Below are positions 8,771 to 25,318 of a stretch of DNA of 46,337 nucleotides, in pieces. The translations under genes were made by a program, and so were the position numbers. Position 1 is the stretch's first letter. The number at the start of each line of letters is the position of its first letter. The notes under the pieces are model-generated. The model was not told the origin of the DNA, did not search any database, and saw only the letters and a program-made list of their open reading frames with translations. Where the stretch lies: the NCBI RefSeq assembly GCF_001270745.1, contig NZ_LFXL01000050.1:1-46337 (forward strand). Direction: 5' to 3'. This stretch comes from Jiangella muralis (lineage in GTDB: Bacteria; Actinomycetota; Actinomycetes; Jiangellales; Jiangellaceae).

Positions 8771-8787
8771 TCGACTGCTCCACGGCG

Positions 8788-8829
8788 CGGCGGCCGCTCC
8801 CCCTGGGGGCGGCCGCCGTTCCTTTTGTT
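8788..8829 (+). terminator. intrinsic terminator after hppA
   Basis: A long GC stem begins 17 bases after the hppA stop: CGGCGGCCGCTCCCC pairs with GGGGGCGGCCGCCG with a single unpaired base, the loop is about two to four bases, and the stem is followed by TTCCTTTTGTTG. The T-rich tail is unusual in this GC-rich window and makes this the clearest rho-independent terminator. Confidence 0.85.
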
Positions 8830-8922
8830 GTGACGGAATCGGCTACGGCTGGGTGCCTGGTTGCGGCCGCACACCCGGAGGAACCCGTCGCCGGAACCGA
8901 CGCGAGCAGCGACGGCGGCCGG

Positions 8923-10221
8923 TCAGCGGACGGCAGCCACGGAGATCACGGCGCCGGGGTGACCCGCGTCGTCCACCGGGGCGGCCGGTACGCCGGACGA
9001 CAGCAGCTCGCCGACCAGCGCCGCCGCGTCCACCGTCGGGGCGAAGGCGTGCACCCCGACCGGCGCGCCGCCGAGTTCGTACCGAGGCGCCAGCCGCGCC
9101 GTCAGCAGGGACCGGCGTTCGTCGTAGACGCGGCGTGCGCGGCGGAGGTGGCGGTCCAGCCCGCCGGACTCGATCAGCGCGGCGACGGTCAGCTGCAGCA
9201 CGACCGAGACGCCGAGGTCGGAGTCTTCGCGCTGCTCCCGCAACCTGTCGGCCACGGTCGGTGGTGCGACGATCCAGCCGAGCCGCAGCCCCGGCGCCAG
9301 CAGCTTGGACAGCGACCCGGTGAACACGACCAGGTCCGGCGCCAGCGCCTGCACCGCCGCCGGCACGACGCCGGGGGCGGCGAGGTGCGAGTCGTAGTCG
9401 TCCTCGACCAGCCAGCGGCCGGCGACGCGGCACCCGTCGACCAGCGACCGTCGCCGGGACGCGGACAGCTGCACGCCGGTCGGGTACTGGTGGCTCGGCG
9501 TGATCATCACGGCCCCGACGCCCGCACCACCGGCGCCGGACCCGTCCAGCAGCGCCGGATCCAGGCCGTCCGCGTCGATCGGGATCTCGACGACCTCGAC
9601 CGGACGGCGCACCAGGTGATGCATGGTGCCGGGCGAGCACGGCCGCTCGACCGCCCACGTCGCGACGTCGAGCACCGTCGTCAGCATCCACATCGCGTGC
9701 GAGACGCCGCCGGTGACGTGGATCTGGTCGGGTTCGGCGGACACGCCGCGGGTCCGGGCCAGCCAGTCGGCCAGCGCCGCCCGCAGCCGTGGATGACCGG
9801 CCGGATCCGGATAGCCGAGGTCCCGTTCGGACAGCCGGGCCAGCGCCTCACGCGTCGCGGCGGCCCAGGCGCGGTGCGGGAACAGCGCCGGATCGGGCAC
9901 GCCCGGAGACGGCGGCGGCGCGGCCGAGCTGGGCGGCGCCAGCGCCGGTGCGCCGGCGCCCGGACCGCCGCTCACGACCGGCCGCCGCCGCGGCGCGGAG
10001 CGGATGAACCCCTCGTCCTGCAGTTGGGCGTAGACGGCGTCGGTGGTGCCGCGGGCGAGGCCGACGGCCTGGGCGAGGTCGCGTGCGCCGGGCAGCGCCG
10101 TGCCGGGCGGCAACCGTCCGCCGAGGATCGCATCGATCAGCCGGCCGCGCAGCCAGGCGGCCTTCGCGACCGGCGGAGGCGGACCCCAGGGCGCGACCAG
10201 CTCGGCGGCGATGTCGGACAT
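8923..10221 (-). CDS. MocR/PdxR-type regulator (GntR wHTH fused to aminotransferase fold)
   Basis: 432 residues. Residues about 15-85 form a GntR winged helix (LRGRLIDAILGGRLPPGTALPGARDLA), then a Pro/Gly/Ala linker, then a class I aminotransferase-like domain. PLP-site features are present: TPSHQYPTG, EDDYDSHL and GSLSKLLAPGLRLGW, whose Lys306 should form the Schiff base. MocR proteins use PLP or an amino-donor compound as ligand and often control a divergent gene, here an EamA transporter. The ATG at 10221 is preceded by an in-frame GTG at 10224; neither has a strong ribosome binding site. Ligand and target are inferred from position only. Confidence 0.88.
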   Translation of the reverse strand: MSDIAAELVAPWGPPPPVAKAAWLRGRLIDAILGGRLPPGTALPGARDLAQAVGLARGTTDAVYAQLQDEGFIRSAPRRRPVVSGGPGAGAPALAPPSSAAPPPSPGVPDPALFPHRAWAAATREALARLSERDLGYPDPAGHPRLRAALADWLARTRGVSAEPDQIHVTGGVSHAMWMLTTVLDVATWAVERPCSPGTMHHLVRRPVEVVEIPIDADGLDPALLDGSGAGGAGVGAVMITPSHQYPTGVQLSASRRRSLVDGCRVAGRWLVEDDYDSHLAAPGVVPAAVQALAPDLVVFTGSLSKLLAPGLRLGWIVAPPTVADRLREQREDSDLGVSVVLQLTVAALIESGGLDRHLRRARRVYDERRSLLTARLAPRYELGGAPVGVHAFAPTVDAAALVGELLSSGVPAAPVDDAGHPGAVISVAAVR

Positions 10222-11771: not shown

Positions 11772-12281
11772 TCAGTCGGTCGCCAGGTACGCCGTCCGCA
11801 ACGCCTGCCGCGCCCGCGACGCCAGGCTGGAGACCGCGTTCGGCGTCAGCGAGAGGCCGGGCGCGAGTTCGGCCGGCGAGTACCGGTCGACCTCGACGAG
11901 CCACAGGATGCTGCGCCACCGCGGCGGCAGCGACGCCCACGCGGCCGTGACCCGCTCCGTCTGCACCGCCGGCAGCACGACGTCGGTGTGGCGCTCCCAC
12001 ATGTCCGGATCGTCGTTGGCGACGGTGCGGCTCTCGGTCTTGCAGTACCGGTACGCCAGGTGCTTCACCGTCGCCAGGACGTAGCCGGCGAAGGAGTCCC
12101 GCGGGCCGCGGCCGGACCGGACCGCCCGCAGCACGAGATAGAACGTCTCCTGGACGAGGTCGTCGGCGGCATGTGAGTCACGCACGATGTTGTGCGCGGC
12201 GCGCCGGGCCATCGGGGACACCCTGCGGTAGAGAGTGCCGAACGCGGCATCGTCCCCCTGATACACACGGTCGAGCAACAT
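11772..12281 (-). CDS. ECF-like RNA polymerase sigma factor
   Basis: 169 residues. Region 2 is recognisable in AFGTLYRRVSPMARRAAHNIV and HAADDLVQETFYLVLRAV, followed by FAGYVLATVKHLAYRY; region 4 is SLPPRWRSILWLVEVDRYSPAELAPGLSLTPNAVSSLASRARQALR, a helix-turn-helix that reads -35 elements. The ATG at 12281 is preceded by GAGGAG at six bases, better than an in-frame ATG at 12314 and longer upstream frames. No anti-sigma gene adjoins it on either side, so its control is unclear; the C-terminus ends soon after region 4. The promoter probably lies in the AT-rich stretch upstream. Confidence 0.82.
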   Translation of the reverse strand: MLLDRVYQGDDAAFGTLYRRVSPMARRAAHNIVRDSHAADDLVQETFYLVLRAVRSGRGPRDSFAGYVLATVKHLAYRYCKTESRTVANDDPDMWERHTDVVLPAVQTERVTAAWASLPPRWRSILWLVEVDRYSPAELAPGLSLTPNAVSSLASRARQALRTAYLATD

Positions 12282-12324
12282 GGTCGACTCCTCATGATCC
12301 CACCCCTTGATCATGAGCAAACAT

Positions 12325-12500
12325 TCCCTGTGACCAGGCCGGCCCGGCGTCGGGGATGTCCGCATTCGTGTATTCGGTAAACACGTACGTGGTCCGGAAA
12401 TTACCTGAAATAGACGGTTCAAAACTGTTGAAATCACTCCAATATGGACAAGCGAAACCAATGACTGTGAGGCAGATCACGTTTATCATTCGTGCTGTGG
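12325..12500. promoter_or_regulatory. AT-rich intergenic island upstream of the sigma-factor gene
   Basis: Between the sigma-factor start (12281) and the hmuV terminator lies a non-coding stretch of about 600 bases; 12325-12500 is strikingly AT-rich compared with everything around it. It contains a perfect 10-base palindrome CACGTACGTG (12382-12391) and an inverted repeat TTCAA-5-TTGAA near 12418-12432. It most likely holds the sigma-factor promoter and possibly a rightward promoter for the small gene at 12558. I could not assign -35/-10 elements with confidence. Confidence 0.45.
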
Positions 12501-12893: not shown

Positions 12894-13739
12894 TCAGCGC
12901 CGCGGGAGGATGACCGGCGCGCCGGTGCGTGGATGGGCGATCACCTCGACGTCGTGCTCGTAGACGTCGGTGAGCAGCGCGCCGCCGAGTACCTCGCGCG
13001 GCGATCCCGTCGCGACGAGGCGGCCGCCCGCGAGGACGGCGACGCGGTCGGCGTGCGCGGCGGCGAGGTTGAGGTCGTGCAGCACGACCACGACGGCGAC
13101 CCCGGCGGCGGCCCGGGTCCGGGCGACCCCGAGGACGAGCTCCTGGTGCCGCAGGTCGAGGGCGGCGGTCGGCTCGTCCAGCAACAGGACGCCGGTCCGC
13201 TGCGCGAGGACCCGGGCCAGCGCGACCCGCGCCTGCTCGCCGCCGGACAGCGACGTGAACCGGCGACCGGCGAACGACGCGACGTCGGCCTCGGCGAGTG
13301 CGGAGCGGACCGCCTCGTCGTCGCCGTCCTCGAGCGGCGTGCCGGCCCAGGGCGCCCGGCCCATCTCGACCACCTCGGCGACGGTGAACGGGAACGACAG
13401 CCGGACCTGCTGGAGGAGGACGGCGCGGCGCATGGCGGCCTCGGTCGCCGACCACGCCGTCAGCGTTGCGCCGTCGAGCGTGACCGTCCCTGCCGACACC
13501 GCGACGTCACCGGTGAGGGCGGACAGCAGCGTCGACTTGCCGGCGCCATTCGGCCCGACCAGCGCCAGCACCTCGCCCGCGCGGGCCTCGACGCTGACGT
13601 CGTCCAGCACCCGTGCCCCGCCGAGCGTGACGGATACGCCCGCGGCCTCGCTGGCGATCGACCCGGCGACGGGGGTCGCGGGCAGCCGGTGCCCGCGGCG
13701 GACGGCGGCCCAGCCCCGGCGAACCTCCGTGCGGGTCAT
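12894..13739 (-). CDS. hmuV: heme ABC transporter ATP-binding protein
   Basis: 281 residues. After a non-conserved N-terminus of about 35 residues the ATPase shows Walker A GPNGAGKST, Q-loop region RRAVLLQQVRLSFPFTVAEVV, signature LSGGEQARVALARVL, Walker B VLLLDEPTAALD and the H-loop VLHDLNLAAAHAD. The MGRAPW segment is typical of the siderophore/heme (FecE/HmuV) subfamily. It would power import of heme through HmuU. The ATG at 13739 overlaps the stop of hmuU (ATGA). The frame stays open far upstream inside hmuU, but the overlap and the family length fix the start. It is the last gene of the heme oxygenase-hmuTUV operon. Confidence 0.92.
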   Translation of the reverse strand: MTRTEVRRGWAAVRRGHRLPATPVAGSIASEAAGVSVTLGGARVLDDVSVEARAGEVLALVGPNGAGKSTLLSALTGDVAVSAGTVTLDGATLTAWSATEAAMRRAVLLQQVRLSFPFTVAEVVEMGRAPWAGTPLEDGDDEAVRSALAEADVASFAGRRFTSLSGGEQARVALARVLAQRTGVLLLDEPTAALDLRHQELVLGVARTRAAAGVAVVVVLHDLNLAAAHADRVAVLAGGRLVATGSPREVLGGALLTDVYEHDVEVIAHPRTGAPVILPRR

Positions 13740-14896
13740 GCCCAGCCGCCTTGGCTGGTGCGGGTCCGGCGCAGCAACCAGAAGAACAGCGGACCGCCGA
13801 CCAGCGCCGTCAGCATGCCGAGCGGGAGGTCCGCATACCGGATGGCGGTCCGGGCGACCAGGTCGGCCGACACCAGCAGCAGCGCCCCGCCCAGCGCGCT
13901 CGCCGGCAGCAGCACCCGGTGCCCGGGCCCGGCGATCATCCGGATCAGGTGCGGCACGACCAGCCCGACGAAGCCGATGACGCCGGCGAAGGCGACTCCG
14001 GAGCCGACCAGCATGGCGACCGCGGCGATGGCGACGAGACGGAGCCGCTCGACGTGGACGCCGAGGTGGCGGGCGGAGCGCTCGCCGAGCGCGAGCAGGT
14101 CCAGCGACCGCGCCATCCCGATCGCCAGCGCCAGTCCCACGACCATGAACGGCAGGACGGCGACGACGGCCTGCCAGCGGGCGCCGTTGAGGCTGCCGAG
14201 CTGCCAGAACACGATCTGCTCCCGCGCCTCCGGTGTCGCGACGAACGTCGCGAACGCGACGATGGCGAACGCGACCGCGGTGACGGCCACGCCGGTGAGC
14301 ACGAGCGTGACCACCTCCGTCCGGCCGCCCGACCGCGACAGCGCGTAGACGAGCAGCGTCGTGACCAGCCCGGTCGCGAACGCCGCCACAGCGACCGTCC
14401 ACTCGCCGAGGAAGTTCGCGCCGGTGACGAAGACCAGGCTGGCCCCGACCGCCGCGCCCGGCGAGACCCCCACGATGGCGGGCTCGGCCAGCGGGTTGCC
14501 GAACACGCCCTGCATCAGCGCGCCCGCCGTCGCCAGCGCGGCGCCGACCAGCAGCGCCAGCACGACCCGCGGGAACCGGACCAGCCAGAGCGTGTTCTCG
14601 CCCTGCACGTGCTCCGGCCGCGGCCCGACGTCCAGCGGCAGGTCCGCCGTCACGCCGATCTGCCGCAGCACCCACTCCAGGTTCGCGTCCAGGCGGTGCA
14701 GGATCGACCCGACGACCTCGGCCGGCGGGATCTGCAGCTGGCCCCGTCCGGCCGACACGATCGTCACGACGACCAGCGCGATCGAGAGCGCCGCGATCAG
14801 GACGCCGCTCCGGCCGCGCCGCCACCGGCTCACGCGCGCGACACCGGTGTCGGGCCCGGCCGGCGCCGACGGCGGAGCCGACACCGTCGCCGTCAT
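13736..14896 (-). CDS. hmuU: heme ABC transporter permease (FecCD family)
   Basis: 386 residues with about ten membrane helices. Family landmarks include LVRFPRVVLALLVGAALATAGALMQ, NPLAEPAIVGVSPGAAVGAS, GVHVERLRLVAIAAVA and FAGVIGFVGLVVPHLIRM, the last being the coupling-helix region that contacts the ATPase. A basic, Pro-rich cytoplasmic N-terminus of about 30 residues precedes helix 1, and a 45-residue extracytoplasmic loop containing HRLDANLEWVLRQIG follows it. Stop and start codons overlap with hmuV downstream and hmuT upstream by four bases, so the three subunits are translationally coupled. Confidence 0.92.
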   Translation of the reverse strand: MTATVSAPPSAPAGPDTGVARVSRWRRGRSGVLIAALSIALVVVTIVSAGRGQLQIPPAEVVGSILHRLDANLEWVLRQIGVTADLPLDVGPRPEHVQGENTLWLVRFPRVVLALLVGAALATAGALMQGVFGNPLAEPAIVGVSPGAAVGASLVFVTGANFLGEWTVAVAAFATGLVTTLLVYALSRSGGRTEVVTLVLTGVAVTAVAFAIVAFATFVATPEAREQIVFWQLGSLNGARWQAVVAVLPFMVVGLALAIGMARSLDLLALGERSARHLGVHVERLRLVAIAAVAMLVGSGVAFAGVIGFVGLVVPHLIRMIAGPGHRVLLPASALGGALLLVSADLVARTAIRYADLPLGMLTALVGGPLFFWLLRRTRTSQGGWA

Positions 14897-16077
14897 GGCT
14901 GGTAGACGGCGTGGGCGAGCGCCTCGATGGTGCGCCCGGAGCGTGGGCCGAAGCTGAGCAGCACGGAGTCGGCCATGTCGACGACGCGCAGCTTCTCGCC
15001 CGCCGGCGTCTGCGCGACGCCGGGCAGCTTCAGCATGCCGTCGACGCCGCCGATGGACTCGAGGCCCTTGCTCATCATGATGATGACGTCGGGGGCGGCC
15101 TCGATCAGCGCTTCGGACGTGATCTGCGTGAACGGCCGGTCCAGCCCGATGTCGGTGCCGACGTCGACCGCCCCGATGGCACGGATCATCGCGTCGGCGC
15201 CAGACCCCGGCCCGGCCAGCAGTTGCACCATGCCGCCGCGGGTGTAGAGGAACGCGACGCGCAGCGGGTCGGCGCCGGCCGGGGCGAGCCCGAGCGCGTC
15301 GGCGATCTCGCCGGACGTCCGCTCGACCAGCTGCTCCCCCTCGTCGGGGACGCCGAGGGCGCCGGCGACGGCGCGGATCTGGCTGGGGATGCGGTCGAGG
15401 TCGCGGGCGTCGTCGAAGAAGATCACCGGGATGCCGGCGTCGCGCAGCTGCTGCTGCACCTCGGGCGGGCCGACGCTGGCGTCGGTGAGGACGACGGTCG
15501 GGTCGAGCTCGAGGATCGCCTCGGCGTTCATGTCGTGGCCGCCGGGCGTGACCAGCGGTAGGGCGGCGGCCTGCGGGAACCCGGTGGACGCGTCGCGGCC
15601 GACGACGTGGTCACCGAGGCCGAGGCTGAACACGATCTCGGCGAGCGTGCCGTAGAGGTCGACGGCGAGGATGCGGCTGGCGTCGTCGACCACCACGGTC
15701 TCGCCGTCGCAGGACTCGACGGTGACGGGGAGCGCGGGCGCGGGGTCGTCGGCCACTGGGGTGACGGTCTGGTCGACGACGGCGGTGGACGGGCCGAGGA
15801 TCGTCCGCGGGTCCCCGCCCTCGTCCGTGCTCGCGCCCGTGCTCGATGGGCGGGGCGGCAGCGGCTCACCGTCCGCGTCGACGCTCACCCCGAACCCGGG
15901 TACCGGTTCCTGACAGGCATGGACGGAATCGGCTGCGGGGTCCGCCGGGGTGCTCTGCGACGAGGGCTGCGCGTCCGTCCCTCCATCTGCCGCGTCGTCC
16001 GCCGGCGCCACGCACGCCGTCGCGCCCAACAGCAGGCCGGCCGCCACGACGACGACCCTGCGCCCCCATCGCCACAC
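14893..16077 (-). CDS. hmuT: hemin-binding lipoprotein of the HmuTUV transporter
   Basis: 394 residues. A lipoprotein signal peptide ends in LLGATAC (Cys22), so the protein is anchored outside the membrane. A Ser/Pro/Asp-rich linker of roughly 80 residues follows. The periplasmic-binding-protein core has the class III features ILAVDLYGTLAEIVFSLGLGDHVVGRD, HDMNAEAILELDPTVVLTDAS and VIFFDDARDLDRIPSQIRAV. Expected to receive heme from surface proteins and deliver it to HmuU. It starts at a GTG immediately after the heme oxygenase stop (one base between) and overlaps hmuU. Heme specificity is inferred from operon partners; siderophore binding is the main alternative. Confidence 0.88.
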   Translation of the reverse strand: MWRWGRRVVVVAAGLLLGATACVAPADDAADGGTDAQPSSQSTPADPAADSVHACQEPVPGFGVSVDADGEPLPPRPSSTGASTDEGGDPRTILGPSTAVVDQTVTPVADDPAPALPVTVESCDGETVVVDDASRILAVDLYGTLAEIVFSLGLGDHVVGRDASTGFPQAAALPLVTPGGHDMNAEAILELDPTVVLTDASVGPPEVQQQLRDAGIPVIFFDDARDLDRIPSQIRAVAGALGVPDEGEQLVERTSGEIADALGLAPAGADPLRVAFLYTRGGMVQLLAGPGSGADAMIRAIGAVDVGTDIGLDRPFTQITSEALIEAAPDVIIMMSKGLESIGGVDGMLKLPGVAQTPAGEKLRVVDMADSVLLSFGPRSGRTIEALAHAVYQP

Positions 16078-16078
16078 G

Positions 16079-16768
16079 TCAGCCGGCCGCGGGCGTCGCC
16101 GGGTGCACCGCGCCCAGCGCGAGGAAGATCTCGGTGTTCAGCCCGTACGCGAGGACCACCTCGTCGATGACCCGTTCCCGCTCGTCCGGGTTCCACCGCG
16201 CCGCGTCGAGCCGGGCGCGGTAGGCGTCCTTGAACGGCCGCGGCTTCGGGATCTGCGCGAAGTGGTAGAACAGCACGCCCTCGCCGCCCAGCTGGAAGCC
16301 GTACGTACGCGACACGATCGTCCCGACGGCCAGCCCGCCGGAGAGGTCGCCGAGGTAGCGGGTGTAGTGATGCGCGATGAACCCGCCGGGCCACTGCGCC
16401 GTCTCGCGGATGCGGTCGGCATAGCGGCGCGTGGCCGGCAGCGGCTCGAGGTCGTCGACGGCGTCAGCGCTGCCGAGGAGGAACGCGAGGTCGCGCCGCA
16501 GCGACGGCACCCGGGTGAGCTCGTCGGTGACGAACGGCCCGGCGATCGGGTCGTCGCGCATGCCGGCGGCGACCGATTCCAGCGCTTCGTAGACGAACAG
16601 GTGCTGCGTGACCAGCGCCGCGTAACCCGCGCGGCTGATGCGGCCCTCCATCAGCGCGTTGATGAACTCCGCGCCGTTGGCGACGTCGTGCAGGGGCCAG
16701 CTGCGCTCGCGCAGGGCCTGGGAGAACGTTCGGGGCTCGGCCTCGGCCGGCGTTCGGGTGGTCGGCAC
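16079..16768 (-). CDS. hmuO: biliverdin-producing heme oxygenase
   Basis: 229 residues. The proximal heme ligand region SWPLHDVANGAEFINALMEG includes the conserved His, and the distal helix has YLGDLSGGLAVG, matching the GDLSGGQ-type glycine-rich motif. Heme oxygenases open the porphyrin to biliverdin, CO and free iron in the cytoplasm. I chose the GTG at 16768 because GGAGGAGC lies five to six bases upstream; a longer frame to 16813 has no such site and would cross the promoter. First gene of the operon with hmuTUV. An iron box overlaps its promoter, so repression by an IdeR/DmdR-type iron regulator is expected. Confidence 0.92.
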   Translation of the reverse strand: MPTTRTPAEAEPRTFSQALRERSWPLHDVANGAEFINALMEGRISRAGYAALVTQHLFVYEALESVAAGMRDDPIAGPFVTDELTRVPSLRRDLAFLLGSADAVDDLEPLPATRRYADRIRETAQWPGGFIAHHYTRYLGDLSGGLAVGTIVSRTYGFQLGGEGVLFYHFAQIPKPRPFKDAYRARLDAARWNPDERERVIDEVVLAYGLNTEIFLALGAVHPATPAAG

Positions 16769-16803
16769 GGATGCTCCTCCGGGTCGGCGCTGCGGATGAG
16801 ACA

Positions 16804-16833
16804 AGTATTGCATCTTAGGTTTGCCTACCCCAA
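16804..16833 (-). promoter_or_regulatory. candidate promoter of the heme oxygenase operon
   Basis: On the leftward strand TTGGGG (16828-16833) and AATACT (16804-16809) are separated by 18 bases, a plausible -35/-10 pair 36 bases before the start codon. The first iron box covers the -35 and spacer. Confidence 0.5.
16815..16833. promoter_or_regulatory. iron box 1 (IdeR/DmdR-type operator)
   Basis: TTAGGTTTGCCTACCCCAA matches 15 of 19 positions of the actinobacterial iron-box consensus TTAGGTTAGGCTAACCTAA. Regulators of the DtxR/IdeR/DmdR family bind it with Fe2+ and repress iron-acquisition genes. Confidence 0.75.
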
Positions 16834-16834
16834 T

Positions 16835-16853
16835 GTAGGTATGCCTTACCTAT
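16835..16853. promoter_or_regulatory. iron box 2 (IdeR/DmdR-type operator)
   Basis: GTAGGTATGCCTTACCTAT matches 13 of 19 consensus positions and is itself a good palindrome. Its centre is 20 bases from that of box 1, two helical turns, so dimers could bind the same DNA face and repress both divergent units. Confidence 0.7.
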
Positions 16854-16909
16854 GCCGATATGGTGCGTCATCGATCCGCAGAACCCGACATCAGGTTGAA
16901 GGGTGGGAC

Positions 16910-17761
16910 ATGTCGAACGTTTCCCGACGGCGCTCACGTCGCCGTCGACTCGTGACGGCGCTGGGGGTGGTCCTGGCGACGGGGAGCTCGCTGAGCCTCG
17001 CCGGGACCGCGGCGGCCGCATCCGCCACCGGCCCGGAAGGCCAGACCATCACCGTCTCCAAGGTCGACGGACTCGACCCGGCCGGTGAGACGATCACCGT
17101 CCACGGCGAGGGCTACGAACTCAACAAGGGCATCTACGTCGTCGTGTGCGTCGACAACGGCGCAGGTCAGCAGCCCACTCCGTGTCTCGGCGGCGCCGAC
17201 ATGGAAGGCGGCGGCGGTGCCTCGGCATGGATCTCGTCGAACCCGCCGTCCTACGGCGAGGGCCTGGCGACACCGTTCGAGGAGGTCGGCGGCAAGGGCT
17301 CGTTCGACGTCCAGTTGAGCGTCGCCGCGCGCGACGAGTTCACCGACTGCCTCGACCCCGCCCAGGCACCCAACGGCTGCGTCGTCGGCACCCGCGCCGA
17401 CCACACCCGCACGGCCGACCGCAGCGCCGACGTGCTGCTCCCGATCACCTTCGCCGCCGCCGGAACCGGCGCGGACGGCGGGAGTAGCGGTACCGGCGGG
17501 GGCGACGGCGCCGATGGCACGGGCGGCGCCGGCGGTACGGGCGGAGCCGGCGGTACGGGCGGCACCGCTGGGAATGGCGGCGCCGCGTCCGGCGGTAGCG
17601 GCGGCCAAAACGGCGCCGCGGGGTCGGCGGCCGGCGGGTCTGACCTCGCCGAGACCGGCGCCCCGATCATCCCGGCCGCGTTGGCCGGACTGGCCCTGCT
17701 CGGCGGCGGAGTCGTGGCCGTCGCCGCACGTCGTCGCAGCGAGGAGACGAACCGACCGTGA
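16910..17761 (+). CDS. sortase-anchored surface protein (LAETG) of the heme locus
   Basis: 283 residues. A signal peptide with a twin-basic start (RRRSRRRR) ends near AAAASA (residue about 38). Residues about 45-185 form one Ig-like domain, starting TVSKVDGLDPAGETITVHGEGYE, with a Cys pair (TDCLDP and PNGCVVG) and a closing VLLPITFAAA strand; it resembles the neocarzinostatin-like fold and the last inserted domain of the next gene's product. A Gly/Ala/Thr linker (about 186-245) leads to LAETG (246-250), a hydrophobic helix and ARRRSEE, the wall-sorting signal of class E sortases. The iron boxes lie just upstream. Its stop overlaps the next start (GTGA). I infer a heme-binding or relay role; no family member of known function is recognised. 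Confidence 0.8.
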   Translation: MSNVSRRRSRRRRLVTALGVVLATGSSLSLAGTAAAASATGPEGQTITVSKVDGLDPAGETITVHGEGYELNKGIYVVVCVDNGAGQQPTPCLGGADMEGGGGASAWISSNPPSYGEGLATPFEEVGGKGSFDVQLSVAARDEFTDCLDPAQAPNGCVVGTRADHTRTADRSADVLLPITFAAAGTGADGGSSGTGGGDGADGTGGAGGTGGAGGTGGTAGNGGAASGGSGGQNGAAGSAAGGSDLAETGAPIIPAALAGLALLGGGVVAVAARRRSEETNRP

Positions 17762-20700
17762 GAACCACATCGTTCAGACGAACCGTGGCGGCGCTGATCG
17801 CCACTGCGCTGGCCACCGGCACGTTGGTCGCGGGTACCGCACCCGCCGCCACCGCCGCCGCCTCTGCACCATCCGCCTTTGCACCCGCCGCCTCCGCACC
17901 GTCCGCCTTTACACCCGCCGCCGCCTTCGCGGCAGAGCCCGCCGAGTCGGCTGGGCCTGCCGAGTCGGCTGGGCCGGGCGTCGCCGCCGGTGCACCGGAC
18001 ACAGCTGCCGCGGCCGACGCCGCCGGCGGCACCCTCGACTGGGGCGTCAAGGCGTCGTTCCGGAACTACATCACCGGCCCGATCGCGCACGGCTCGATCG
18101 AGGTCCGCGACCCGGCGACGCGCAACACCGACGGCACGGTGCGGTTCGCCGACGCGACCGGCAGCGCCGACCCCGACGCCGGCACGGCCGACCTGGCCTT
18201 CGCCGGTGAGGTCTACTTCGCCGGTCACGACATGGGCGCCGGCCCGCTGCTCGAACTGACCGTCACCGACCCGCGGGTCGCCGTGACGTCCGCGACCGAG
18301 GGCGTGCTGGTGGCAGACGTCGTCAGCAAGGCGCTGGACTCCGGCGAGTTGGTCACCTACGACGACGTCGAGCTGGCCGACCTCGACCTCGCCGACCACC
18401 CGCTGACGTTCGACGGCGACACGGTGTCGGCGACGGGCGTTCCGGCAACGTTGACCGCAGCTGGCGTGCCGGCGTTCGCGAACTTCTACACCGCCGGCGC
18501 CGCCCTCGACCCGCTCACCTTCACCGCCACCCTGGAGGCGACGGCGCCGGTCTGGGAACCGTCGATCGAGGTGTTCGCGGCCGACGGGACCACCCCAGCA
18601 GCGGATGCCGACCTCAGCTACGGGGACACCGTCGTGGTGCGCGGCAGCGGCTTCGACCCGTTGGGCAACGTCGCGCCCGAAGGCAACCGCCCGCCGATCC
18701 CCGCCGGCGTCCCCGCGGGCACGTACGTCGTCTTCGGTAAGTTCGCCGACGACTGGCGGCCCTCGACCGGCGCGCCGCCGGCCGGCCGCGTGGTCGGCAC
18801 CCAGAAGTGGGCGCTGGCGCAGGCCGCACTCGACCAGGTGCCGGCGCAGTACCAGAGCGCGATCCGCGCCCAGTGGGCCGACGTGCAGCCGGACGGCACC
18901 TTCACCGCGGAGCTGACGCTGGCCAAGCCGACGGACCGCACGACCGGCGAGCCGGTCGAATGGCCGGAGGCCGGCACGCTCGGCGTCTACACCTATGCCG
19001 CCGGCGGCTCGACCAACGTGGACCAGGAACTGGCCGTGCCGCTCACCGTCGCCGAGCAGACCGACCCGGACCCGGAGCCGGTCGTGGTCACCGACGCGAC
19101 GTTCGAGTGGGGCATCAACCTGGTCTCGCAGTACGGTTCGCCGGCCGGTGGCTGCAGCTTCTTCGTCGCCGGCATCGCCGACGGCACCGAGGCCAGCTAC
19201 AAGACGCAGGACGGTGCTGTCTATCTGCTCAAGCGGCTGGCCGACGGCCGTGCCACGCAGGTGACCGCCGAAAACCGCTGCCTCCCGCTCGTCGACGACA
19301 AGATCAACCAGCGCGCGCTGTTCACCGGCGGCACGGGTGAGCTGGACGCGATCGGCGCCGGCGGCATCGCGTGGACCGGCGCGTTCACCATCTACTCCTA
19401 CGGCGGCATGGTGCCGTGGTACGTCAAGGACCCGGTGCTGACGATCGACGGCGCGGGCAACGGCGCCATCACCGCTGAGGTCGGCGGCTTCGCGTCGTCG
19501 ATGGAGGATCCGACGGTCAAGGAGCCGCTCGACCCCGAGCAGGACGTGACCATCCTGGAGCTGTCGGGCGTCGTGATCGAGGACGGCGTCGTCTCCGGCA
19601 CGCCGGTCTATCGGGGCGTCGACTACTTCCCGCTGAACGACCCGACGGACCCGGCGTCTGGCCGGCGCGAGACGTCGGCGATCCCGGACGAGGCGAAGGC
19701 GGCCAACCCGGACTGGGGCGCGTGGCCAACCCCGATCGTCGACTTCCACTACCGCACCGGGCTGTCGTCGTACTGGCACAGCAGTGGCCTGAGTGCCGAC
19801 CCGAACAAGCCGCCGCTGCCCGTCCTGCTCGACCTCGACGGTGGCGTGCCCGAGTTCGTCGACGTGTACCCGATCACCATCAGCGGCCAGCCGCAGTGGG
19901 CGCAGGTTGTCACCGGCGACGACGCCACGTTCACCGTCGGCGCCGAGAGCGACGAGTCGCTGACCTACCAGTGGCAGCGACGTGCGCCAGGGGCGAGCGA
20001 CTGGGTGGACGTCGACGGCGCGACCGGCACGACGCTGACACTGCCGGGCGTAACACCGGTCGACACGGGCACCTACGTCCGCGTGACGATCGCCAACAGC
20101 ACGACGTCGGTGACGTCGAGCGCGGCCGGGGTTCAGGTCCAGGACGCGGCGGCTCTGGAGCTGTGGTCGTCGCCGAAGGACGAGACCACGTTCGTGGGGT
20201 ACGAGGCGCAGTTCGCCGCCGACATCGCCGGCTGGCCGCGGCCGACGTACCTGTGGCAGACGAGCGCCGATGGCGGCGCCACCTGGATCGACAGCGGCGA
20301 GCCCGGACAGCTGCCGTCGCTGGAACTGACCGGCGTCACCGCCGGCCAGGACGGGCTGCAGGTCCGTGCGGTCGGCAGCAACGGCCGCGGGCCGGACGTC
20401 GTGACCGAGGTCGCCGAGCTGACCGTGTTGCCGGCGCCGTCGGAGCCGACGCTGGTGTTCCCCGCGGGCACCGATTACGACCCCGCGGCGGACTTCCTGG
20501 TGATCGAGGCGCTCGGCGGCGGTTACCCGGTGCCGACGAGCGACACGATCGTGGCCGTCGTCGAGGCCGAGGTCTGGGCCGCGCGCGACGAGTCGTTCGA
20601 CCACGAGACCGACACCGTCGCATGGTCGAACCTGCAGTCGATCAACTACCGCGACGGTTTCGTCAACGCCGGGGTGTACGTGGAGCCCGGGAAGATCGAC

Positions 20701-23700
20701 GCGGACAAGGACTACGTTCTCGTCACGTTCAGCACGACGCCGGGCGACCGAAGCCACGACGCCGAGGTGGTTGTCCCGTTCGGATCGGGGGAGCCCACCT
20801 GGGAGCCGTCGATCGAGGTGTTCGCGGCCGACGGTGTGACCCCGGTGGCCGAGGCCGAGCTGAGCTACGGCGACAGCGTCGTGGTGCGCGGCAGCGGGTT
20901 CGACCCCGAGGGCAACGTCGCACCCGAAGGCAACCGGCCGCCGATCCCGGCCGGCGTACCCGCCGGCGCGTACGTCGTGTTCGGCTCGTTCGCCGACCAG
21001 TGGCGGCCGTCCGAGGGCGCACCGTCGTCGGCCCGGACCGTCGGCTCGCAGCAGTGGGCACTTGCGCAGGCCGCGCTGGACCAGGTGCCGGCGCAGTACC
21101 AGGACGCGATCAGGGCCCAGTGGGTGGGGATCGCGGCCGACGGCACGTTCACCGCGGAGCTGACGTTGGCCAAGCCGGCCGACCGCACCACCGGTGAGCC
21201 GCTCGAGTGGCCCGCCGGCACCACGCCGGGCGTGTACACGTACGCCGCCGGCGGCGCCGTCAACGCCGGCCAGGAGCTCTCCGTTCCGCTCGCCGTCGTC
21301 GACGACGAGGAGCCGGCCGGGCCGTCCATCGAGCTGTCGGATTCCGAGGGCCTGTCCAATATCGGCGGCAACACCGTCGGCGTGACCGGCGCCGGTTTCG
21401 CGCCGCAGATCGCCGTGGAGGTCGTCCAGGCCGTGCGCATCGACGGCACGGACCCGACCACCTGGCCCCGAGCGAACGGCGCGGCGCGGCTGATGACGAC
21501 CGCCGACGGAGGCTTGATCGTTCCGGCGACGTTGAGCGAGGTGACCTCGCGCTTCGTGCCCGACGGGAGCGGCGACGTCTACGACTGCGCGGTGGTCGAG
21601 TGCGTGGTGCTGGCCTCCAACTTCAGCGACCAGACCGACCGCTCCCAGGACGTCTGGGTGCCGATCTCCTTCGACGACGCCGAGCGGCCCGTGCCCGCGG
21701 TGACGCTGAGCCGGACCGAGCTGCCGGCCGAGGGCGGCGCGGTGAACGTCACCGGAACCGGCTTCGTGCCCGGCGACAACGTGCTCGTCGCCCAGACCAC
21801 CGCGCTGGATGACGCCACCGACGCACGCGAACTGCCCCGCAACCCGGGCGGCACGAGCTACGTCGTGCCGGGCACGGGCGACCAGTCGTGGGCGACGACG
21901 CTGGGCGACATCACGCCGTCCTTCACGACGGACGACGGAGAGACCGTGGACTGCCGTGAGGTCGAGTGCGCGGTGGCGGTCTTCCCGAGTGGGCGTGCCG
22001 ACCTGTCCCAGAGCGTGTTCGTCCCGATCACATTCGCCGACGAGGAACCGCCGGCCGACGACGGCTACCTCGACTGGGGTCTGAAGGCGTCGTTCCGGAA
22101 CTACATCACTGGACCGATCGCGCACGGCGCCATCGAGGTACGCGAGCCGGCCACGCGGAACGAGGACGGCACCTTCCGGTTCGCCGGCGGCGCCGGCACC
22201 GGGTCCGCGGCGGCGGCCGAGCTGACCTTCGCTGGGGAGGTGTACTTCTCCGGGCACGACCTGGGCTCCGGTCCGCTGCTGGAGCTGACCGTGACTGATC
22301 CGAGGGTCACAGTGGCGTCGGCGACGGACGGCGTGCTGGTGGCCGACGTGGTGAGCAAGTCGCTGGACTCCGGCGAACTGGTGACCTACGACGACGTCGA
22401 GTTCGCGACGCTGGACTTCACCGACCACCCGGTCACGGTGACCGACGGGGTCGCTGCGGCGTCGGACGTACCAGCGGCGCTGACCGAGGCGGGCGCCGAG
22501 GCGTTCGCCGGGTTCTACACCGCGGGCACCGAGCTGGACCCCGTCACGTTCAGCGTGACGCTCGAGGACGAGCCGCCGGTTCCGACGCCGAAGGTCGTCG
22601 TGTCGGAGGTCGCGGATCTCGACCCGTACGCCGACCAGATCACCGTCACCGGGTCCGGGTTCACCCCCGCCGACCTTGCTGGCGGCCTGCGGGTCGGTGT
22701 TGGCGTGGTGACCGGCGACGGCAGCGTGCCGGCGCTGGACCCGGTCGAGACCGTGACGTTCGAACCGGCCGGCGGCCTGCTGTCGTTCGGCCGGGCGGCA
22801 CTCGGCGCGTTCGAGGTGACGCTGACGACCGGCACGGTCGAGCCGGGCACGACGCTGGCGGTCTACACGTCGCCGGTCGACCCCGCGGCGAACCCCGCGT
22901 ACGCGACGCGGACGCCCATCGCGTTCGCCGACGTCCGCACCCCACAGCTCACCGTCACGCCGACGGAGGAGCTGGCGGTCGGCACCGAGGTGCGGATCGA
23001 GGGCACCGGATTCGCGCCGAACCGTCGGATTTCGCTGGCGATCACGGCGAACGCCGAGCAGGACCCCGACTACGGCTGGCCCACCGGCTGGCTGCAGCAC
23101 GAGGTCGTGCAGGCTGACGCGTCCGGCGCACTCTCGCGGACACTGACGCTGGCCGGCACCGTGACCGGCAACGGAGTGGACTGCGCGGAGACGGCCTGCT
23201 TCGTGGCGAGCTTCAGCTCGGCGCAGGCGTCCGACGCGACGCCGGTCGACTACCGCGCCGACCGCAGCCAGGACGTAGTGGTCCCGGTGACGTTCGCGAC
23301 CGACCCCGGCCCCGAGCCGGAGCCGCCGGCCGTCACCGTCGACCCTGACCCGGTCGTGCAGGGCGAGGCGGTGACGTTCACCGGCATCGGGTTCGAGCCC
23401 GGCGCCACGGTGACGGCCGTCGTCGACCGAGACACGCCGCCGCCGGGTGACACCGGCACGCTGGACTGGGGCGTCAAGGCGTCGTTCCGGAGCTACATCA
23501 CCGGGCCGATCGCGCACGGCGCCATCGAGGTGCGCGACCCTGCGACGGAGAACGACGACGGCACCTTCCGGTTCGGCGAGGGCAGCGGCGACGCGACCGC
23601 CTTGACGTTTGCTGGGGAGGTGTACTTCGCCGGGCACGACCTGGGCTCCGGTCCGCTGCTGGAGCTGACGGTGACTGATCCGAGGGTCACGGTGGCGTCG

Positions 23701-25164
23701 GCGACGGACGGCGTGCTGGTGGCCGACGTGGTGAGCAGGTCGCTGGACTCCGGCGAACTGGTCACCTACGACGACGTCGAGTTGGCGACGCTGGACTTCA
23801 CCGACCATCCGGTGACGGAGACCGGTGGCGCCGTGGCGGCGTCGGACGTGCCAGTGGCGCTGACGGAAGCCGGCGTGGCGGCGTTCGCGGACTTCTACCC
23901 CGCGGGCACCGAGCTGGACCCGGTCACGTTCAGTGTCCCGGCCGGCGTGGCGGACGCCGCGACCGGCGTCCGGACCGCGGGCGTCGATGCCGGTGTCGGC
24001 ACCGCGGGCGAGGACGGCACGGTCGAGATCGGCTGGACCGTGCCGCGCGACCTCTCGGCCGGCGGGCACACCGTCGATCTCGTGGTCGCGGACGAGTCGC
24101 CTGCCAGCACCGCGTTCACCGTCGAAGAGGCCGGCGAGGAGCCGCAGCCCGACCCGGACCCCGCGGTCAGCGTCGACCCGGAGACGGTGGCACAGGGCGA
24201 GACGGTCACCTTCACCGGCACCGACTTCGGCGCCGAGGAGACCGTCGAGGCGACGATCCTGATCGACGCCGCAACCGAGGAGCTCACATTCCAGAACGAC
24301 CACGGCCAGGCGATCACCGTCAGGTCTGCCGATGGCACCCCGCTGGTGCAGCGCGACGGCAAGCTGCTGGTCGTCGACGGCGGCGAGCTGGACGTGACGC
24401 TCACCGGGCTGGAGCCGACCAGCGAGGAGAACACGCCGGAGTCTCCGGCCGGGTTCTACCTGCTGACGGCGGTCGACAACGGTCCCGGTGAGGTCGCGAC
24501 TCCGGCCATCGGCGGCGCCGACACCAGCGGCGAGTCGGGCACCTCGAGGTGGATCACCAACTTCCCGTACGCGGGGAGCGAGGACGTCGTGGTGCCGATC
24601 GCCGGCGGTGTCGCCGAGACGTCGATCGCGCTGGTGGCGGCCGACGAGTACGCCGACTGCGACGCCGGCTGCTTGCTCTACCTGCGCACCGACCACCGGT
24701 CGGCGGCCAACCGCGCGTTCGACCTGCGGGTGCCGCTGGAATTCGTCAGCGCCGACGAGCTGGCCGCCGCGGCCGAGGCAGAGCCCGTCGCCGTGACGGG
24801 TACGACGTCGGAGGACGGCTCGGTGCGCATCGACTGGACCGTCCCGGCCGACTCGCCGGTGGGGCCGGCCACCGTCACGCTGGCCGGCGCGGACTCCGCG
24901 CTGACCGCGTCGGCGCCGTTCACCGTGACCACCGCCCAGCCGGGCGGCGACGACGGCGGCTCCGACGAGAGCGGCGCCGATGACGGTGGCGACACCGGTG
25001 GGGCGGCGGACGGCACCGATGACGGCAACGATGACGGCGCCGGCGGCGGTGACGGCGACCTGCCTGACACCGGCGCCGACCCGCTGGTCGTGCTGTTCGC
25101 CGGGCTGGTGCTGCTGGCCGGTGGCATCGCGGTCGTGCTCTACGACCGCCGCCGCTGGGCCTGA
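17758..25164 (+). CDS. htaA: giant HtaA-family hemin-binding surface protein (LPDTG)
   Basis: 2468 residues; signal peptide (cleavage near residue 34). Canonical HtaA domains lie at about 92-260, 1435-1603 and 1901-2059. Each keeps the Tyr/His/Tyr set expected for heme: Tyr104, His157, Tyr244; Tyr1449, His1500, Tyr1587; Tyr1913, His1960, Tyr2047. A diverged HtaA-like domain lies at about 442-698 (WGINLVSQYG, WTGAFTIYSYGGMVPWYV). Between them are two copies of a 174-residue module (about 262-435, 1014-1187), two Ig domains (701-895), several neocarzinostatin-like Ig modules and two interrupted Ig domains near the end. An Asp/Gly linker precedes LPDTG (2435-2439), a membrane helix and YDRRRWA. 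Corynebacterial HtaA proteins bind hemin and feed HmuTUV; that role fits here. GTG start, coupled to the preceding gene. Confidence 0.9.
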   Translation: MRTTSFRRTVAALIATALATGTLVAGTAPAATAAASAPSAFAPAASAPSAFTPAAAFAAEPAESAGPAESAGPGVAAGAPDTAAAADAAGGTLDWGVKASFRNYITGPIAHGSIEVRDPATRNTDGTVRFADATGSADPDAGTADLAFAGEVYFAGHDMGAGPLLELTVTDPRVAVTSATEGVLVADVVSKALDSGELVTYDDVELADLDLADHPLTFDGDTVSATGVPATLTAAGVPAFANFYTAGAALDPLTFTATLEATAPVWEPSIEVFAADGTTPAADADLSYGDTVVVRGSGFDPLGNVAPEGNRPPIPAGVPAGTYVVFGKFADDWRPSTGAPPAGRVVGTQKWALAQAALDQVPAQYQSAIRAQWADVQPDGTFTAELTLAKPTDRTTGEPVEWPEAGTLGVYTYAAGGSTNVDQELAVPLTVAEQTDPDPEPVVVTDATFEWGINLVSQYGSPAGGCSFFVAGIADGTEASYKTQDGAVYLLKRLADGRATQVTAENRCLPLVDDKINQRALFTGGTGELDAIGAGGIAWTGAFTIYSYGGMVPWYVKDPVLTIDGAGNGAITAEVGGFASSMEDPTVKEPLDPEQDVTILELSGVVIEDGVVSGTPVYRGVDYFPLNDPTDPASGRRETSAIPDEAKAANPDWGAWPTPIVDFHYRTGLSSYWHSSGLSADPNKPPLPVLLDLDGGVPEFVDVYPITISGQPQWAQVVTGDDATFTVGAESDESLTYQWQRRAPGASDWVDVDGATGTTLTLPGVTPVDTGTYVRVTIANSTTSVTSSAAGVQVQDAAALELWSSPKDETTFVGYEAQFAADIAGWPRPTYLWQTSADGGATWIDSGEPGQLPSLELTGVTAGQDGLQVRAVGSNGRGPDVVTEVAELTVLPAPSEPTLVFPAGTDYDPAADFLVIEALGGGYPVPTSDTIVAVVEAEVWAARDESFDHETDTVAWSNLQSINYRDGFVNAGVYVEPGKIDADKDYVLVTFSTTPGDRSHDAEVVVPFGSGEPTWEPSIEVFAADGVTPVAEAELSYGDSVVVRGSGFDPEGNVAPEGNRPPIPAGVPAGAYVVFGSFADQWRPSEGAPSSARTVGSQQWALAQAALDQVPAQYQDAIRAQWVGIAADGTFTAELTLAKPADRTTGEPLEWPAGTTPGVYTYAAGGAVNAGQELSVPLAVVDDEEPAGPSIELSDSEGLSNIGGNTVGVTGAGFAPQIAVEVVQAVRIDGTDPTTWPRANGAARLMTTADGGLIVPATLSEVTSRFVPDGSGDVYDCAVVECVVLASNFSDQTDRSQDVWVPISFDDAERPVPAVTLSRTELPAEGGAVNVTGTGFVPGDNVLVAQTTALDDATDARELPRNPGGTSYVVPGTGDQSWATTLGDITPSFTTDDGETVDCREVECAVAVFPSGRADLSQSVFVPITFADEEPPADDGYLDWGLKASFRNYITGPIAHGAIEVREPATRNEDGTFRFAGGAGTGSAAAAELTFAGEVYFSGHDLGSGPLLELTVTDPRVTVASATDGVLVADVVSKSLDSGELVTYDDVEFATLDFTDHPVTVTDGVAAASDVPAALTEAGAEAFAGFYTAGTELDPVTFSVTLEDEPPVPTPKVVVSEVADLDPYADQITVTGSGFTPADLAGGLRVGVGVVTGDGSVPALDPVETVTFEPAGGLLSFGRAALGAFEVTLTTGTVEPGTTLAVYTSPVDPAANPAYATRTPIAFADVRTPQLTVTPTEELAVGTEVRIEGTGFAPNRRISLAITANAEQDPDYGWPTGWLQHEVVQADASGALSRTLTLAGTVTGNGVDCAETACFVASFSSAQASDATPVDYRADRSQDVVVPVTFATDPGPEPEPPAVTVDPDPVVQGEAVTFTGIGFEPGATVTAVVDRDTPPPGDTGTLDWGVKASFRSYITGPIAHGAIEVRDPATENDDGTFRFGEGSGDATALTFAGEVYFAGHDLGSGPLLELTVTDPRVTVASATDGVLVADVVSRSLDSGELVTYDDVELATLDFTDHPVTETGGAVAASDVPVALTEAGVAAFADFYPAGTELDPVTFSVPAGVADAATGVRTAGVDAGVGTAGEDGTVEIGWTVPRDLSAGGHTVDLVVADESPASTAFTVEEAGEEPQPDPDPAVSVDPETVAQGETVTFTGTDFGAEETVEATILIDAATEELTFQNDHGQAITVRSADGTPLVQRDGKLLVVDGGELDVTLTGLEPTSEENTPESPAGFYLLTAVDNGPGEVATPAIGGADTSGESGTSRWITNFPYAGSEDVVVPIAGGVAETSIALVAADEYADCDAGCLLYLRTDHRSAANRAFDLRVPLEFVSADELAAAAEAEPVAVTGTTSEDGSVRIDWTVPADSPVGPATVTLAGADSALTASAPFTVTTAQPGGDDGGSDESGADDGGDTGGAADGTDDGNDDGAGGGDGDLPDTGADPLVVLFAGLVLLAGGIAVVLYDRRRWA
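18550..19056 (+). repeat. intragenic duplicated module, copy 1
   Basis: This segment encodes EPSIEVFAADG through QELAVPL, about 170 residues, and recurs at 20803-21299 with most residues identical, including GNVAPEGNRPPIPAGVPAG. The unit begins like an Ig-type GSGFDPxGNV surface module and holds the unusual ALAQAALDQVPAQYQ helix. Confidence 0.8.
20803..21299 (+). repeat. intragenic duplicated module, copy 2
   Basis: Second copy of the module at 18550-19056, sharing EPSIEVFAADG, GNVAPEGNRPPIPAGVPAG and AQAALDQVPAQYQ. It follows the two Ig domains and precedes the neocarzinostatin-like modules. Confidence 0.8.
22231..22433 (+). repeat. near-identical HtaA segment, copy 1
   Basis: By direct comparison this 203-base segment of the third HtaA-type domain differs at only 7 positions from 23611-23813 in the last canonical HtaA domain (about 96.5% identity). 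The surrounding parts of the two domains are less alike, which suggests gene conversion or a recent partial duplication. Confidence 0.9.
23611..23813 (+). repeat. near-identical HtaA segment, copy 2
   Basis: Partner of 22231-22433, 1380 bases downstream in the same frame, with 7 mismatches in 203 bases. Confidence 0.9.
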
Positions 25165-25174
25165 CTGGCGGTTC

Positions 25175-25214
25175 GTGCACCTGGCCGCTCTCGCGAGAGG
25201 ACGGCCAGGTGCAC
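25175..25214 (+). terminator. terminator of the htaA unit
   Basis: GTGCACCTGGCCG (25175-25187) and CGGCCAGGTGCAC (25202-25214) form a perfect 13-bp stem. The 14-base loop contains its own palindrome CTCTCGCGAGAG, so the hairpin may extend. GTCTGTCTTTCG follows, weakly T-rich. It lies 11 bases after the htaA stop. Confidence 0.8.
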
Positions 25215-25230
25215 GTCTGTCTTTCGTACG

Positions 25231-25318
25231 CATGTCGCCCTCCTTGAACTCGAAGTTGATCTTGAGAAGAGGTTGGCATACTCTCGTTTCAAGATCAACT
25301 CGGAACGGAGGGAGCGTG
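25231..25318. promoter_or_regulatory. orphan divergent promoter-like inverted repeat
   Basis: AGTTGATCTTGA (25254-25265) and TCAAGATCAACT (25289-25300) are perfect 12-base arms with a 23-base centre; each arm holds TTGAtcTTGA. Outside the left arm, on the leftward strand, AAGGAGGGCGAC precedes an ATG (25233-25231); outside the right arm GGAGGGAGC precedes a GTG (25316-25318). TTGATC (25256-25261) and CATACT (25277-25282) could form a rightward promoter. Neither start opens a believable gene: the frames run antisense to htaA and to the MFS gene, whose stop codon (25295) lies inside the right arm. Confidence 0.5.

Follow-up and report, generated by a model that had tools for sequence, protein, structure and literature searches.

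A divergent, iron-box-flanked, probable heme-acquisition locus of Jiangella muralis with a giant HtaA surface protein and a candidate hand-over protein beside HmuT

The window analysed here is one entire contig (NZ_LFXL01000050.1, 46,337 nucleotides, assembly GCF_001270745.1) of the 7.27-Mb genome of the soil-type actinobacterium Jiangella muralis. It carries an apparent heme-uptake locus, in which two DtxR-type boxes separate the genes of heme oxygenase and HmuTUV from those of two wall-anchored proteins. One is a giant HtaA surface protein; the other is a small neighbour, here called P2. We hold it somewhat more probable than the opposite that this is an iron-repressed heme-acquisition locus in which the HtaA domains capture heme and P2 helps to pass it to HmuT. 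Heme capture by the HtaA domains is well supported by homology. P2 is proposed as the hand-over step on the basis of its linkage, its conservation and the vacancy left by the absent HtaB.

In the order of transcription, the minus strand encodes heme oxygenase, HmuT, HmuU and HmuV, with the Pfam families PF01126 (heme oxygenase), Peripla_BP_2, FecCD and ATP-binding cassette (ABC) ATPase. This operon is divergent from P2 and the giant HtaA gene on the plus strand, which are coupled through a GTGA overlap. The genes and boxes are as follows.

12894..13739, minus strand: HmuV, ABC ATPase (PF00005); its ATG overlaps the HmuU stop (ATGA)
13736..14896, minus strand: HmuU, FecCD permease (PF01032, 296.8 bits)
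14893..16077, minus strand: HmuT, putative heme-binding lipoprotein; Corynebacterium glutamicum HmuT (5az3) is the top solved relative (E 1.4e-66)
16079..16771, minus strand: heme oxygenase (PF01126, 161.6 bits; heme oxygenase structures at E 5e-34)
16815..16833, no strand: DtxR-type iron box 1, 16/19 to the consensus
16835..16853, no strand: DtxR-type iron box 2, 14/19 to the consensus
16910..17761, plus strand: P2, small wall protein of 283 residues, with an ATG start at 16910
17758..25164, plus strand: giant HtaA surface protein of 2468 residues; its GTG start overlaps the P2 stop (GTGA)

For heme oxygenase, GTG 16771 is probably the start rather than ATG 16813, because a GGAGGA ribosome-binding site precedes that codon. 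A 603-residue open frame for P2 was replaced by the frame from ATG 16910. The first-pass annotation had described a divergent, iron-box-flanked unit for heme acquisition, and the gene families, the layout and the two boxes in the shared promoter bear this out. Its two wall-anchored proteins are also found: the LPXTG_anchor model matches the giant protein (17.2 bits against a cut-off of 15.9), and P2 has an LAETG motif, the sortase anchor models being under cut-off or unlisted for P2. Sortases have 7 matches in the genome and 0 on this contig.

Both boxes sit in the promoter region common to the two divergent operons, and a DtxR-family repressor is encoded in the genome; we infer that the locus is repressed by iron through DtxR/IdeR-type regulation. 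A degenerate box pattern with one mismatch allowed gave 4 matches in the genome (0 in the backward control), one of which is this locus. The other three lie near a Peripla_BP_2 gene (L152), a ZnuA-family gene that precedes an ABC ATPase gene (L150) and a class-III aminotransferase gene (L151). These are genes for metal uptake or, possibly, for siderophores. Pfam scans of these sites speak for iron boxes. They leave our confidence in the overall interpretation unchanged because the P2 step is what limits it.

The giant open reading frame is a real gene, as shown by its PF04213 matches, its full-length homologues and a GC by codon position (0.70/0.54/0.93) that agrees with that of the adjoining genes. 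An antisense frame of 2660 residues (17251-25233, minus strand) was rejected as a high-GC shadow frame with a third-position GC of 0.71 vs 0.93 for the giant gene; homology was not sought for it. Four full-length homologues of 78-85% identity were found, all named Jiangella and three of them with a species. A profile search with PF04213 gave three matches in the giant protein, at 163.9-176.9 bits far over the cut-off of 24, and across the whole genome no other protein matched. HtaA domains 1-3 have the CR-domain fold and carry the axial Tyr (104/1449/1913), the helper His (157/1500/1960) and the C-terminal Phe-Tyr (244/1587/2047). Among 135 HtaA domains, the axial Tyr is present in 135 and the helper His in 134. 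The matches and the residues thus confirm the three canonical HtaA domains with the Tyr/His/Tyr set that had been read from the sequence, and all three are predicted to bind hemin. The modules of the giant protein, all on the plus strand, are listed below with residue numbers in brackets.

18019..18543, plus strand: HtaA domain 1 (88-262); PF04213
18541..19077, plus strand: module A, copy 1 (262-440); no Pfam match, ~82% identical to residues 1013-1186 over the best part
19075..19878, plus strand: D4, diverged HtaA-related domain (440-707); matches the HtaA profile and 6jsa, no Pfam match
19873..20433, plus strand: two immunoglobulin (Ig)-like domains (706-892); the first by PF13927, the second through a repeat match
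20431..20787, plus strand: module X893 (892-1010), end of the D4-Ig-Ig cassette; follows D4-Ig also in P0019 and P0020 at 33-34% identity
20788..21327, plus strand: module A, copy 2 (1011-1190); repeat match
21325..22056, plus strand: neocarzinostatin-like domains 1 and 2 (1190-1433); PF00960 and repeat matches
22057..22569, plus strand: HtaA domain 2 (1434-1604); PF04213
22567..23307, plus strand: neocarzinostatin-like domains 3 and 4 (1604-1850); PF00960 best at residues 1731-1824, domain 3 placed from position alone
23305..23451, plus strand: carrier domain A, N-half (1850-1898); matches the carrier B N-half, and from a model
23449..23943, plus strand: HtaA domain 3 (1898-2062), nested in carrier A; PF04213
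23935..24141, plus strand: carrier domain A, C-half (2060-2128); repeat match
24133..24303, plus strand: carrier domain B, N-half (2126-2182); TIG match under cut-off and repeat match
24295..24762, plus strand: P2-like domain (2180-2335), nested in carrier B; 33-39% identical to P2
24760..24942, plus strand: carrier domain B, C-half (2335-2395); repeat match
25060..25155, plus strand: LPDTG sorting signal, hydrophobic stretch and positive tail; TIGR01167

On this map, the length of the giant protein comes from about a dozen other modules, not from additional heme sites. HtaA1 and HtaA2 are ~1,170 residues apart, with at least 8 modules between them, and HtaA2 and HtaA3 ~295 residues. Because of these distances, heme transfer would need bending of the chain or contact between chains. 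The suggested long wall-spanning relay is therefore doubtful as a wire within one extended chain.

D4 had been taken for a fourth, diverged HtaA domain. The distant relationship holds: against HtaA profiles of strong members only, hhalign gave 96.8% and E 3e-10, aligned over their length, and a five-row D4 alignment matched C. glutamicum HtaA (6jsa) among the solved structures at E 2.7e-4. At the axial site D4 has no conserved Tyr; the nearby Tyr of the window D4 occurs in 1 of 11 aligned rows. Tyr548, present in 25/25 D4 domains, stands at the HtaA helper-His position. Because the conserved axial Tyr is lacking, we do not include D4 among the heme sites of the known type. D4 is an HtaA-related domain family without a name so far. 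With the Ig domains, it forms a cassette that is also present in other large surface proteins. Two or three D4 and Ig domains were seen in surface proteins of 1,497-2,197 residues (P0016, P0019, P0020, P0021 and P0022), PF04213 being listed for P0016 alone. A Nakamurella protein has a third D4 that shares 60% identity with the window D4; its Ig and X893 parts match less closely, at 33-45%. In addition, 3 stand-alone D4 proteins were found.

Through its D4 and Ig domains, the giant protein might serve chiefly as an adhesin or as a receptor, for instance of hemoproteins, with its heme domains incidental. We consider this rather unlikely. The giant gene and the importer share a single iron-boxed unit, and the cassette is dispensable, because the Jiangella endophytica protein P0009 lacks the whole of it and yet retains all three HtaA domains.

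P2 consists of a neocarzinostatin-fold domain (residues ~41-182), a Gly-rich stalk and the LAETG anchor. The fold is assigned from a structure model and a fold match; Foldseek alone gave no P2 match under E 0.001, and the call comes from a second fold comparison. The window P2 has no PF00960 match, though PF00960 is listed for many relatives, and NF040680 was not reached. PF04213 does not match P2, so P2 is not itself an HtaA/CR domain like HtaB. Across 31 chosen rows, 49 columns are invariant, including Trp107, Tyr115, Asp164, His165, Arg167 and four Cys, and the 26 rows from outside Jiangella are 47-59% identical to the window P2. A Cys pattern and an Asp-His-Thr motif are common to the P2 profile and ThiX, a lipoprotein from the bcc-aa3 supercomplex in C. 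glutamicum, whose soluble domain is unresolved in the supercomplex structure (PMC8795186). RoxP of Cutibacterium, an Ig-like protein for which heme binding is disputed (PMC8873378, PMC13244789), was set aside as a parallel; it is absent among the solved sequences matched by P2.

P2 is linked to the heme importer well beyond Jiangella. Of 80 loci retrieved through P2 alone, 77 have HmuT at a distance of no more than 10 kb, 74 have an upstream iron box and 38 have heme oxygenase. The HmuT model gave 0 matches in 5 loci without P2, a small control. The HmuV model is unspecific, since two loci that lack P2 score 291 and 161 bits, and HmuV counts were therefore taken at a 300-bit bar. A Chloroflexi metagenome bin (L137) has P2 with heme oxygenase and HmuTUV, for which transfer or mis-binning is possible. 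In a sample of 296 genomes of the class, P2 is found in 56 and linked in 51 of them. It adjoins heme oxygenase in all 17 Jiangellaceae, and in 12 other genomes heme oxygenase or HtaA is no more than 10 kb away (for G188, the P2 match is within the HtaA frame). P2 is unlinked in one genome (G132), and four (G055, G109, G137 and G279) fall outside both counts.

P2 and the modules of the giant protein could also be only a stalk or wall scaffold, with the HtaA domains passing heme directly to HmuT and the P2-HmuT link reflecting co-regulation. Folds such as those of the neocarzinostatin-, Ig- and TIG-like modules are typical of stalks, and carrier B matches plain Ig-like sandwiches. The conservation of P2, in contrast, exceeds the needs of a spacer, and P2 stays beside HmuT even where HtaA, anchor and iron box are all not found. 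We give the scaffold explanation a modest chance.

The ligand of the importer was judged from HmuT. Its putative heme ligands, His181 and Tyr278 with Arg280, align with CgHmuT in 5az3, for which the His/Tyr/Arg set has been described (PMC4926363), and the set is present in every ungapped HmuT row aligned. The alternative that the P2-linked transporter imports another tetrapyrrole such as cobalamin, above all in small-genome lineages, is very improbable. BtuF and BtuC models do score HmuT and HmuU proteins too, but always under cut-off. For the HmuT of the small-genome locus L154, the E value is 1e-45 with a heme-binding HmuT structure vs 6e-7 with a B12-binding protein. For that of the Streptomyces locus L094, the values are 3e-58 with 5gj3 (Periplasmic binding protein) and 2e-53 with C. 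glutamicum HmuT vs 4e-7 with B12-binding proteins. The ligand set and the heme oxygenase in 38/80 loci likewise speak against cobalamin.

Small-genome actinobacteria bear on the proposed role of P2 as a heme-delivery protein. P2 occurs without an HtaA match in 23 genomes of 1.3-3.1 Mb, which belong to three families (13, 9 and 1) and thus represent few independent events. A divergent HmuT stands beside P2 in 22 of these; the exception is G132. HemB (PF00490) is found in 0/23 and in 11/11 hand-chosen comparison genomes. No LPxTG- or LAxTG-type motif is present near the P2 end in any of the 23 frames, and no iron box above 12/19 in the 19 P2 promoter regions checked. An anchorless, box-free P2 facing HmuT in HemB-less genomes is as expected if P2 serves heme import itself. 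Heme oxygenase has no match in 22/23 (G290 has fragments elsewhere); this, with the lack of an iron box, is as expected if heme is wanted intact. Judging from genome size and G+C, at least some of these lineages are probably the abundant freshwater actinobacteria (Nanopelagicales) reported as heme auxotrophs, such as Planktophila (PMC12381374). In L154, P2 is followed by another exported protein (8124-9110) whose P2-like domain is weak, with similar proteins in L155-L161, L164, L165 and L180; this arrangement echoes the P2 and larger protein of the window.

We put at even chances the broader proposal that P2 is a new class of neocarzinostatin-fold heme-delivery protein and a core HmuTUV partner across Actinomycetota. 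In scavengers it would be anchored, iron-regulated and HtaA-fed; in heme-auxotrophic small-genome actinobacteria it would be anchorless, box-free and the main surface factor beside HmuT.

Several observations weigh against a role of P2 in heme hand-over or against iron control of the locus. No known heme motif is present in P2, model confidence is low for the loop that is best conserved, and the nearest solved sequence is ThiX (7qhm_M, E 0.005), which is not a heme protein. The 34 loci counted under Streptomyces have HmuT in the P2 flank, but HmuUV is seen in one of them, heme oxygenase in one and HtaA above 60 bits in none. G132 (L166) has P2 and no HmuT nearby. Two of 12 Jiangella genomes lack HtaA: one has heme oxygenase and a partial P2 match but no HmuT, and the other has only heme oxygenase. 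With a ZnuA-family gene next to one box, the boxes might respond to zinc or manganese instead of iron.

In the mechanism that we propose, a DtxR-type repressor would leave both boxes at low iron, and both operons would be expressed. The giant HtaA protein would be a long stalk of modules that projects from the peptidoglycan, with HtaA1 at the tip and HtaA2 and HtaA3 closer to the wall, each binding one hemin by the axial Tyr aided by His. D4 would not bind heme in the HtaA manner and more likely has another ligand or a structural role. P2 and the P2-like foot domain may act between the HtaA domains and HmuT, in the place of HtaB in corynebacteria, to receive hemin or present it to HmuT. HmuUV would then import the heme, and heme oxygenase would free the iron.

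The gene order HmuV-HmuU-HmuT-heme oxygenase divergent from P2 and the HtaA protein is conserved in every Jiangella stretch of sufficient length and in the two sister genera, where the HtaA frame has ~1,000-1,200 residues. Within the family, HtaA domains are found in 16/22 genomes. In the 12 Jiangella genomes, the one analysed here included, open HtaA frames of 2,484-2,647 residues occur in 6, the gene is cut by contig ends in 2, and shorter frames (1,834 and 1,348) occur in 2; the remaining 2 have no HtaA. Two Jiangella have an additional separate HtaA protein of ~895 residues away from this locus (L055:8235-10928 and L056:8141-10819). An extracytoplasmic function (ECF)-type sigma factor gene (11772-12461, minus strand) lies downstream of HmuV, a position conserved in six of the examined Jiangella stretches, and is possibly an extra regulator of the locus.

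The size of the protein had been called exceptional against corynebacterial HtaA. In the class sample, HtaA is found in 68 of the 296 genomes, and the Jiangella frames are the longest among those listed, of which none outside the family is above 1664 residues. Large relatives have, however, already been named: a search covering proteins of 1,357-4,319 residues returned "HtaA domain-containing" proteins from Jiangella (to 2,460 residues), Georgenia, Oerskovia and Cellulosimicrobium. The nearest named relatives are those of Jiangella, and the corynebacterial comparison finds no support in that form. These large proteins usually have two or three HtaA domains and module A repeats, and several have neocarzinostatin-like and carrier domains; outside Jiangella, those of the named genera are shorter (~1,360-1,780 residues). 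The D4 cassette is combined with canonical HtaA, among the mapped proteins, only in Jiangella-type proteins and the metagenomic P0010. Extra HtaA copies as such are not unusual, since four HtaA domains occur, among the matches listed, in frames of 948, 955 and 1114 residues (G104, G209 and G257).

In the corynebacterial HtaA/HtaB/ChtA-HmuTUV-HmuO system, small proteins are tethered via a C-terminal helix (PMC12494546), whereas the window has one LPXTG protein of 2468 residues with three HtaA domains. The window lacks a separate HtaB, has P2 and the D4-Ig cassette in addition, and has heme oxygenase as the first gene of the hmuTUV operon. Export has been tested for a Streptomyces HtaA protein of the LPXTG type (PMC10924467). 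The Isd/NEAT relay of Firmicutes, described in part in PMC12494546, is alike in that surface heme-capture proteins feed a lipoprotein and an ABC importer; unlike it, the giant protein and P2 have no NEAT match in Pfam scans. From the neocarzinostatin/macromomycin chromoprotein family (PF00960), P2 differs in its wall anchor, ~30 extra residues and its linkage to heme import. In the open-licence literature, we found no publication joining neocarzinostatin with HtaA and, among the matches listed, none joining it with HmuT. HtaA, HmuTUV and large HtaA proteins are already known; the new part would be the role of P2.

This locus bears on how heme passes across the thick actinobacterial wall. The 2025 structural paper on Corynebacterium diphtheriae names rapid CR-to-CR heme passage and the role of wall-buried HtaB and ChtB as still to be determined (PMC12494546). 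The locus combines three CR domains on one chain with no HtaB and a conserved P2 family filling the gap next to HmuT. If the proposed role is true, the foot of the giant protein, where equal carrier domains enclose the P2-like and an HtaA domain, would form a hand-over step within one chain. The P2-HmuTUV pair of HemB-less lineages is a directly testable candidate for their heme supply. In many other bacteria, too, the heme importer is accompanied by P2, a small, little-noticed surface protein that may supply the missing hand-over step.
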